This document shows positions 23,279 through 25,304 of a stretch of DNA of 32,244 nt, piece by piece. The notes beneath the pieces were generated by a model, which was not told where the DNA came from, made no database searches, and worked only from the letters and a program-made list of their open reading frames with translations. Each line of letters opens with the position of its first letter. Position 1 is the first letter of the stretch. This DNA comes from a virus, in the IMG/VR virus record IMGVR_UViG_3300043568_000667, positions 1 to 32,244 of that record. One strand, 5' to 3'. The position numbers and the translations under genes are program-made.

Positions 23279-24058
23279 CTAAATTTCTACGAATTTATAC
23301 TTTCGTTGTACCATACGCTCAACATAGATACGCGCATAAATTCTTTGCCAGCTTGGAACGTTTATTAATTCACTTTCATTTCCATTTATTTCAGCTCTTT
23401 TAATTCTTTCTTTATGTTCCAGCTTTGCACTTGCGTTTATTTCTTCCATTTCTTCCAATGTCAAAACTCCAGAAAAATTTCTGCCTATTGCGTTTGCGTG
23501 GTGTTCAGTCCCTAACCATTTGCCTTGTTTAATTGATTCCAGATAAATGTTTTTTGCTGTTTTTTTAAATTCCAGATCCTTTTGAATTCGCATTTTTTCT
23601 TCTTCCAATTTTTTTAATTCCTTTTCAATTTCATTTTTAATAATATTTTTTTTACGGAAAAATTCTGTAATTGGTTTTAAAAAAATATCACGTGTTAAAA
23701 TATAAACCTTTTCTTCTTGTGTGTGCGTTCTAAATGCTAATTGAATATCATTTACAGTTAACTGAGGGAAACGCTCTGTAATGCACATGAAAATATCTTC
23801 TATCGTTAATATATCTAAACTTTCAGGTGCAATTCCAAAAATAGATTTTGAAACGAATAAAAAATATTGATCACAAAACCAGTTTTTTTCGATAGCTAAA
23901 ATATTAGAATCTTGAAAAAGTTTTGCGATTGCATTTTCATTGATTGTTATTCCTCTTGGAATTAAAGAGTTCTTCACGTTCTCGATTGAGGCGTTGTCGA
24001 GCTGCTTCAGTTCGATCTGTAATTGTTGGTTTTGAAAAATTGTTATTTGATTGTCCAT
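23279..24058 (-). CDS. Hypothetical helical protein downstream of replication gene
   Basis: From the ATG at 24058 the protein has 259 residues starting MDNQITIFQNQQLQIELKQL. The central part contains EDIFMCITERFPQLTVNDIQ and a lysine-rich coiled coil (about 140-175). The C-terminal part has VPSWQRIYARIYVERMVQRK. Codons before 24058 overlap the upstream gene even further and are less likely. Overlap with the replication gene is 122 bases, unusually long. A DnaC-loader-like or replication-accessory role is suggested only by position. Confidence 0.6.
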   Translation of the reverse strand: MDNQITIFQNQQLQIELKQLDNASIENVKNSLIPRGITINENAIAKLFQDSNILAIEKNWFCDQYFLFVSKSIFGIAPESLDILTIEDIFMCITERFPQLTVNDIQLAFRTHTQEEKVYILTRDIFLKPITEFFRKKNIIKNEIEKELKKLEEEKMRIQKDLEFKKTAKNIYLESIKQGKWLGTEHHANAIGRNFSGVLTLEEMEEINASAKLEHKERIKRAEINGNESELINVPSWQRIYARIYVERMVQRKYKFVEI

Positions 24059-24707
24059 TTTGTTGATTATTAAAGTTTTTATCATTTTTTTGCCACGTGC
24101 TTAATCTTCTTTCTAAACTCCATGTAGTTTGCATTTCCTTTCTAAATTTTGTATTTGATTGATTTGGCTCAGTCCAATATTCGTAAAATTCTTTTATAAA
24201 ATCTCTTGTGTATTGTTCAACAAAAGGTTTTAGTGTTTCAGCAAATTTTAATTTGCGTTCCTCTATATTGTTCTTTGTTATATTGTTACTTGTTATATTG
24301 TTTAATTGTTTATCTATACTAACAGTGCTTTGACTATGCTTTGTACTATGCTTTTGCAATGCTTTGTCTAGTGCTTTTGTAGTTGCTTTTGTAGTTGCTT
24401 TTGTAGGTGCTTTGGTATTTTTTACAATAGCAACTATATTTGAAGAGTATTGATTTTTGCTAATTTCAATCATTTCAATAAATCCAAAATCTACTAATTC
24501 ACTAAGTCCAGATGAATACGTTCTCCAGTTTTTAACTCCTATTGCTTCCATTACCATTTGAGAAGGTAAACCAAATTTATTTTTCCAACCTAAACGATTG
24601 CAGTGTTCAATTGCAAAGTAATAAATACCGTAATGAATTGGTTTTATTTTATCAGGATTTTCGAAAGCCCAATCAACAAAATTTCTTGATAATTCATAAC
24701 TATTCAT
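23937..24707 (-). CDS. Replication initiator-like winged-helix protein
   Basis: From the ATG at 24707 it has 256 residues. Residues 1-95 (MNSYELSRNFVDWAFENPDK on to LVDFGFIEMIEISKNQYSSN) form a winged-helix domain like those of phage replisome organisers and DnaD-type proteins. Residues 95-135 are a Thr/Lys/Ala-rich linker. Residues 140-200 are helical (ETLKPFVEQYTRDFIKEFYE). The tail is Asn/Gln-rich. The linker coding region carries an iteron-like array (24324-24414), an arrangement like the lambda O gene. A structured leader with a terminator-like hairpin lies directly upstream. An ATG at 24758 would fall on the far side of that hairpin and is rejected. Confidence 0.7.
   Translation of the reverse strand: MNSYELSRNFVDWAFENPDKIKPIHYGIYYFAIEHCNRLGWKNKFGLPSQMVMEAIGVKNWRTYSSGLSELVDFGFIEMIEISKNQYSSNIVAIVKNTKAPTKATTKATTKALDKALQKHSTKHSQSTVSIDKQLNNITSNNITKNNIEERKLKFAETLKPFVEQYTRDFIKEFYEYWTEPNQSNTKFRKEMQTTWSLERRLSTWQKNDKNFNNQQNGQSNNNFSKPTITDRTEAARQRLNREREELFNSKRNNNQ
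24324..24414. repeat. Iteron-like array inside replication gene
   Basis: The core tgcttt occurs at 24326, 24337, 24349, 24360, 24372, 24384, 24396 and 24408, eight copies with 11-12 bp spacing. Translated on the minus strand the core AAAGCA appears in all three reading frames (K-A, K-H, S-T), so the repetition is conserved at DNA level rather than as protein. This fits an origin with initiator-binding iterons, as in phages with the origin inside the initiator gene. Confidence 0.6.
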
Positions 24708-24727: not shown

Positions 24728-24815
24728 AAAAAACCCCAATAAATCCAGTAGGTCTCACGTACTTTCATTATCGAGGTTCAATAATTTTTTTGTTACCTAT
24801 TTTTGAGACCGTAAC
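24728..24815 (-). ncRNA. Structured attenuator-like leader with kissing hairpins
   Basis: Minus-strand RNA of about 88 bases upstream of the replication gene. Hairpin 1: GTTAC/GTAAC stem (plus-strand 24792-24796, 24811-24815) with a 14-base loop holding GGTCTCA. Hairpin 2: 11-bp stem (plus-strand 24732-24742 with 24768-24778, two G-U pairs) followed by T6, with an inner AGTA/TACT stem and an apical loop holding TGAGACC. The two loops are exactly complementary over 7 bases (plus-strand 24751-24757 and 24804-24810). Hairpin 2 is a terminator 21 bases before the ATG. This suggests a regulated attenuator; the ligand or signal is unknown. Confidence 0.6.
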
Positions 24816-24822
24816 AGTTTTG

Positions 24823-24830
24823 CAAATATA
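24823..24830 (-). promoter_or_regulatory. Promoter -7 box before structured leader
   Basis: The minus-strand box TATATTTG (plus-strand caaatata) fits TAnnTTTG. A start about 7 bases downstream (near 24816) would place hairpin 1 at the 5-prime end of the transcript. No -33 TTG is seen. The gap between this box and the end of the upstream endonuclease gene (24846) is only 16 bases. Confidence 0.55.
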
Positions 24831-24845
24831 AAAAATAAATTAACA

Positions 24846-25304
24846 TTAAAGACATTTAACAGCTTTTAAATATTCTAAATGCGCTTTAAATTCACAATTA
24901 AAAGAACCTAGAAACTTTTGTTTGCCGTTAATATAAATTCTTGACCTCCATTTTTTACCAGCAACGCAAACTCCTTTAAATTTACTTAGATATCTTTCTT
25001 GTAAACGATGCGAATTGCTTCTTTGAGTAATTAGCTGTAAGTTACTAAAATCGTTATTTTGGCGGTTGTTATCTATATGATCAACTACAATGTTCATTTT
25101 GTTTGGTTTGTGTCCTAAAAACGCCATTGCTACCAAAACATGACCTCCATAAGTTCTGCCGTTAACTTGAAATTGCTTGTAACCTTTTACACTAATAGAA
25201 CCTTTCAAAATTACTTCTTTGCCCTTTCGATAGCTTTTAACTTTTCCGTAATTTGATATTAAATAATCTTCAAAGCCTTCAATTGTTTTCCATTGTTCTT
25301 GCAT
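24846..25304 (-). CDS. Homing endonuclease (NUMOD4-HNH-AP2)
   Basis: A 152-residue protein with three parts. Residues 5-45 (WKTIEGFEDYLISNYGKVKS) are a NUMOD4-type motif. Residues 50-95 form an HNH nuclease with HVLVAMAFL, V-V-D75-H76 and NNRQNNDFSNLQLIT. Residues 108-150 (KGVCVAGKKWRSRIYINGKQ, then FLGSF) form an AP2-like DNA-binding domain. This layout is typical of free-standing phage homing endonucleases. It lies between the resolvase and the replication genes, 3 bases after the resolvase stop, so it inserted at an operon junction. It spreads by cutting alleles without it. Confidence 0.88.
   Translation of the reverse strand: MQEQWKTIEGFEDYLISNYGKVKSYRKGKEVILKGSISVKGYKQFQVNGRTYGGHVLVAMAFLGHKPNKMNIVVDHIDNNRQNNDFSNLQLITQRSNSHRLQERYLSKFKGVCVAGKKWRSRIYINGKQKFLGSFNCEFKAHLEYLKAVKCL

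Follow-up and report, generated by a model that had tools for sequence, protein, structure and literature searches.

A phage leader with conserved pairing between its 5′ hairpin loop and terminator loop, a candidate attenuator of replication-type and other operons in phages of Flavobacteriia

Upstream of a replication-type gene on the minus strand of the virus record IMGVR_UViG_3300043568_000667 (positions 1 to 32,244, the whole stretch analysed, hereafter the window) lies a leader whose 5′ hairpin loop is exactly complementary to the loop of its own terminator, and this complementarity is maintained by covariation among its relatives. The layout is that of an attenuator, with a promoter, a structured leader, and a hairpin and U-tract that closely precede a start codon in the same direction. 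Because promoter, leader, terminator and gene follow one another in this way, regulated read-through is the natural reading. We consider it fairly probable that the leader is a phage-encoded, cis-acting attenuator whose read-through is set by a kiss between the 5′ loop and the loop of the terminator.

Reading along the minus strand, a TAnnTTTG box (TATATTTG, 24823..24830; the −7 element of the promoter) precedes, with a gap of 7 nt, the hairpin P1 (24791..24816). Sequence and fold define P1 as a 6-bp stem, TGTTAC/GTAACA, with core arms GTTAC (24815-24811) and GTAAC (24796-24792) and a 14-nt loop. Boxes of this type occupy −12 to −5 relative to flavobacterial transcription start sites (PMC9723704); the predicted RNA start is therefore about 24818. 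The P1 loop contains the segment X (GGTCTCA, 24804..24810), which pairs with its exact complement X′ (TGAGACC, 24751..24757) in the terminator hairpin. The latter comprises the 11-bp stem P2a (AACCTCGATAA, 24778-24768, with TTATTGGGGTT, 24742-24732) and an inner stem P2b (AGTA, 24763-24760, with TACT, 24750-24747), supported by fold and covariation, which closes a 9-nt apical loop with X′ at its 3′ edge. The U-tract of the intrinsic terminator follows (24728..24733). P2a includes two G-U pairs and so is functional only as minus-strand RNA. The window RNA folds better than most of its shuffles (z −2.1). The original prediction had placed the box, the 5′ hairpin, the terminator and the exact 7-base match where we find them, and direct reading bears out its minus-strand-only 11-bp stem with two G-U pairs; its terminator hairpin was correctly recognised but omitted P2b.

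The ATG of the downstream gene (24707-24705) starts 20 nt past the U-tract. This gene (23937..24707, minus strand, 256 aa) is a putative replication initiator, judged from phrog_19415 and a replication-operon position that it shares with some of the relatives; no Pfam match was obtained for it. On the other side of the leader, a NUMOD4/HNH homing-type endonuclease gene (24846-25304) ends 29 nt ahead of it. Further copies of the leader stand directly ahead of HNH genes in Flavobacterium phage snusmum6-1 (13662) and in L032, L084 and L056 (L-numbers label contigs or loci in this analysis).

Tenacibaculum phage Gundel_1 (71% over 124 nt) came up as a relative in a sensitive DNA search, with snusmum6-1 as a weaker match. 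In both, the loop sequences differ from those of the window and the pairing is kept (GCTCTCAC/GTGAGAGC and GCTTCGAC/GTCGAAGC). Scans of IMG/VR with patterns for the 3′ half and the 5′ half of the element yielded about 100 contigs with relatives. A covariance model that comprised P1, P2a and P2b without the kissing helix, its training set having been filtered on pairing, gave 89 matches in loci fetched by the 5′ pattern alone. Among 43 distinct loop pairs, 41 are exactly complementary over 6 nt or more, 38 of them over 7 nt or more; the other two belong to elements cut by contig ends, and hence all 41 intact distinct elements are paired, with kisses of 6-10 bp. When loops are exchanged among elements, a 7-base match arises in 8% of cases; shuffled loops give one of at least 7 bases in 0.2%. 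Since the relatives keep the pairing at a frequency so far above that of shuffled loops, the X/X′ match is not due to chance.

Covariation was assessed in an unfiltered alignment (A3) assembled from a scan for the P1 sequence only, without promoter or 3′ part. All 39 elements recovered show loop-loop pairing and a T-run; the promoter box is found in 38. In the kissing helix 95% of cells pair, with both-sided changes at six of the eight pairs; such changes also occur at 9/9 pairs of P2a and 5/5 of P2b. The whole structure was matched by none of 500 shuffles, and slid controls were 30-50% paired (about 38% after a one-base slide). P1 is invariant in A3 because the search fixed its sequence; however, relatives found through the 3′ half, and so not selected on P1, possess the compensated stems GTTGC/GCAAC, GTACC/GGTAC and GGTCAC/GTGATC. 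In another alignment (A2) RNAalifold picked the kissing helix unprompted. This result and the covariation in A2 are supportive but biased, since A2 had been filtered on loop-loop pairing. The covariation that was proposed with the original prediction as a check upon it is seen in the loop pair and in the terminator stem, and P1 has compensated variants in these relatives.

The family extends beyond recognisable sequence similarity. We built a descriptor in which the box alone is fixed in sequence, the other elements being a 4-bp P1, a 6-nt loop-loop match and a terminator of at least 6 bp with a T-run. Phage loci totalling 1.16 Mb, mostly fetched for holding an element, yielded 109 elements and their shuffled copies none; 0.48 Mb of bacterial sequence gave one match, inside a coding sequence. 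Members with unrelated P1 and X are revealed in this way. Of three copies in snusmum6-1, one precedes a helicase, one an HNH gene and one gp043. A second copy in Gundel_1, unrelated in sequence, lies directly ahead of an annotated replication protein and has a 9-bp kiss (GTAGGATTC/GAATCCTAC). L015 (7427-7522) lacks P1; there the terminator loop is complementary over 10 bases to the predicted RNA 5′ end, an X:X′ helix of 10 bp. The element is spread over unrelated phages of Flavobacteriia, whose hosts are marine and freshwater flavobacteria. On one Flavobacteriales contig (L126, 19-81), a box and a GTTAC/GTAAC hairpin with a type-1-like loop are followed directly by an ATG, with no terminator hairpin; this is either a chance occurrence or a half element.

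No family in Rfam 15 matched the window leader at any threshold used. Among twelve homologous loci the element again had no match, the sole hit above gathering being a tRNA in L030, outside the element. The suggestion that the leader might belong to Flavo-1 or another known Flavobacteria motif is thus not upheld. Both Flavo-1 and the present element derive from Flavobacteria, but reports of Flavo-1 concern host genomes, where it occurs in either orientation (PMC9723704), whereas the present element is phage-restricted. A strict 5′ pattern gave 11 matches in GTDB species genomes, none of them genuine; of 397 Flavobacteriaceae genomes scanned with the covariance model, one gave a genuine match, on a small, possibly phage contig. 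The element is nearly confined to phages, and a host regulon is rejected on these counts. Full-text searches of the openly accessible literature returned no description of the element. We could match its fold and its sequence-free pairing rule to no described family in Rfam or in that literature; the leader family is apparently undescribed, its broad kind being the terminator leader.

The downstream gene is co-directional in all 45 elements scored (the case of the window being settled by reading); upstream genes are divergent in about nine of the 45. The first ATG lies mostly 7-25 nt past the U-tract, so close that a separate promoter for the downstream gene would not fit. These observations bear on whether the leader might simply be an independent small RNA, knotted for stability, to which the downstream gene is incidental. 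Possession of its own promoter and terminator, and of structure at both the 5′ and the 3′ end, would suit such an RNA; nevertheless, a gene that is always co-directional, usually within 25 nt and without space for a separate promoter makes this explanation highly improbable.

In 31 of 48 operons a replication-initiator or replisome-organiser-like gene is found close to the start, and the remaining elements precede helicase, HNH, methyltransferase or antirepressor genes. Thus, the claim of a phage-encoded leader before replication holds in that promoter, structured leader and terminator do precede a replication-type gene, but replication-initiator operons account for about two thirds of cases and the element is not specific to them. 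The genes immediately behind 45 leaders belong to at least 29 unrelated groups, and identical leaders occur before unrelated genes, making the product of the downstream gene an unlikely controller. In L018, L021, L031, L048, L077 and L093 the first gene encodes a member of a 60-90 aa protein family ending in an SLDKxTxIKLxxELRKQI-like motif; no Pfam match was found for the one member tested.

Contigs that share an identical element often share upstream DNA and none of the 600 bases downstream. In the pair L048/L074 the values are 0.93 upstream, 1.0 in the element and 0 downstream; between L012 and the window they are 0.79, 0.93 and 0. The opposite case, in which downstream DNA is shared and upstream DNA is not, is seen in L034/L111. 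Recombination-boundary cases comprise the window (24728-24817), L012, L031, L038, L040, L044, L048 and L074. The leader therefore appears to stay while the operon behind it is swapped, and its retention across exchanged operons speaks for a general device rather than for control by a product encoded downstream. In its fullest form, kissing of arbitrary sequence between 5′ end and terminator loop would control termination, the leader would be an insulated plug-in for any downstream module, and it might also act as a trans immunity RNA of private specificity. We offer this wider proposal tentatively, as a possibility.

Leader-peptide attenuation was considered and rejected, since no short ORF is conserved across the family (leader sequences judged by eye). 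Some type-1 elements encode MK..YWIY; in others (for example L003, L018, L019, L034 and L042) the ATG is missing or an immediate stop follows. A short ORF, which starts in P2 (MKVRETYWIYWG...; window 24769-24702, minus strand), is open in several type-1 leaders (L012, L063 and L078). In L012 it continues in frame into the next gene, and it is not family-wide.

The loops themselves are diverse, with 35 distinct X segments among 69 elements. Where copies reside in the same phage, each matches its own partner over 7-9 nt and other copies over at most 4 (28 ordered pairs, from a small and partly related sample). We read this, within so small and partly related a sample, as pairing in cis by copies that are insulated from one another. 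Because co-resident copies do not cross-pair, cis pairing is preferred over trans dimerisation, which is disfavoured as the main reason for the complementarity.

A trans-acting role of another sort has a precedent in satellite phage P4, in which the CI, seqA and seqC elements form a leader RNA and terminator that gate the replication genes and release a short terminated RNA (PMC4825925). The layout of the present element, with a leader and terminator placed to gate a phage operon, segments of RNA that are complementary to each other and a terminated RNA that is short, is common to P4 CI/seqA/seqC and Gifsy-1 IsrK (PMC4825925). By analogy with CI RNA acting on the P4 replication operon, the terminated leader might serve in immunity or dosage control by pairing with nascent leaders that share its specificity, so terminating them. 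The replication operon as target, the diversity of the loops and the insulation of copies within a phage would all accord with this, yet we judge it improbable. P4 employs a processed antisense RNA in trans, whereas here the partners are complementary hairpin loops of one RNA of about 90 nt, so that cis pairing should win, and the same X recurs in many different phages. Additionally, antisense promoters are not enriched (10/69 elements against a background of 21/169), on which ground countertranscript control through an antisense promoter was also rejected.

Family geometry is consistent with a kiss formed within a single molecule. The P1 loop is 14 nt with X at its 5′ edge, the terminator loop is 10 nt with X′ at its 3′ edge, and P2a measures 11±1 bp (10-12 bp). 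In type-1 elements X abuts the 5′ arm of P1 and is separated from the 3′ arm by 5-8 nt, X′ lies 1-2 nt past the 5′ arm of P2b and 0-1 nt ahead of the 3′ arm, and the linker is mostly 11-17 nt. The box, which the descriptor required, was located in 68 elements, in most of them 5-8 nt upstream of P1, and predicts an RNA start about 1-5 nt upstream of P1. A pseudoknot containing P1, X:X′ and P2b together needs one short crossing and one longer, A-rich crossing. The crossing lengths fit these needs, so X:X′ can coexist with P1 and P2, and the kiss is probably compatible with an intact terminator. Counted as a bare duplex, with loop costs excluded, the kiss contributes about −10 to −12 kcal/mol, against only −1.3 kcal/mol for P2b by itself; we therefore favour, with modest confidence, the kiss as a helper of the terminator. 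The P2 terminator stem (−15.5 kcal/mol) seems adequate without the kiss, however, and the kiss could serve another role such as RNA stability.

The original prediction had allowed for kissing or for alternative pairing. Kissing is conserved and covaries, but a classical antiterminator finds no support: pairing between the linker and the P2a arm came to 4.24 bp against 4.42 bp for shuffled linkers, with no excess. Our best reading of the sequences is that the kiss modulates termination rather than forming a classical antiterminator. Fluoride, ZTP and guanidine-II riboswitches likewise combine a structured leader, a pseudoknot or kissing loops, and a terminator ahead of a gene, and these features are shared by such riboswitches, attenuators and the present leader. 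Unlike them, this family has no conserved ligand-like core across its subtypes, its kissing sequence is variable, no mutually exclusive antiterminator was detected between linker and terminator arm, and its genes are not tied to one metabolite.

In the attenuator that we propose, RNA polymerase would start within a few bases of P1, which would make P1 the 5′-terminal hairpin. Once the terminator hairpin had been made, its apical loop X′ would kiss X, and P1, X:X′, P2b and P2a would stand together in one compact pseudoknot. Most transcripts would stop at the U-tract, yielding a knotted RNA some 90 nt long, and a fraction, set by the kiss, would read on into the operon just downstream. The kiss would most likely stabilise the weak P2b and thus the terminator, termination then depending on an undisturbed 5′ hairpin; were the P1 loop occupied, or were the polymerase to outrun the kiss, transcription would pass through. 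The anatomy, the covariation, the strict geometry, the co-directional gene with its nearby start codon and the private loop pairs are shown by computation; the transcription start, termination in vivo and simultaneous folding are what we infer, and the controller of the kiss is guessed. That the kiss promotes termination, as opposed to preventing it, is also a guess, and one that leans only slightly towards promotion.

The converse, that the kiss turns the operon on, would have the knot of P1, kiss and P2b at the U-tract either hinder closing of P2a or contact the polymerase in the manner of HK022 put. The latter is a cis-acting RNA of about 70 nt with two stem-loops, and putL directly follows an early promoter of the phage (PMC9378689). 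Like putL, the present leader is a cis RNA with two stem-loops right behind a phage promoter, predicted to be early, ahead of replication genes, and its spacing suggests that P2b and the kiss would emerge as the polymerase reaches the U-tract. Nonetheless, we regard antitermination of this kind as rather unlikely. P2b is continuous with P2a and should aid closing of the terminator. Furthermore, put has no built-in terminator and is not built of kissing loops; it binds polymerase and suppresses distant terminators, whereas the present RNA contains a terminator and its hairpins are joined by a variable loop pairing of 7-9 bp.

The leaders described here form a structured RNA family that covaries very strongly, has no match in Rfam and stands at the entrance to the phage replication operon. 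The leader probably decides whether the replication genes downstream of it are read. If the kiss does control termination, this would be RNA-only tuning of terminator strength by a freely chosen loop sequence, which would be useful for design, and it would provide, to our knowledge, the first handle on early gene control in these abundant phages.
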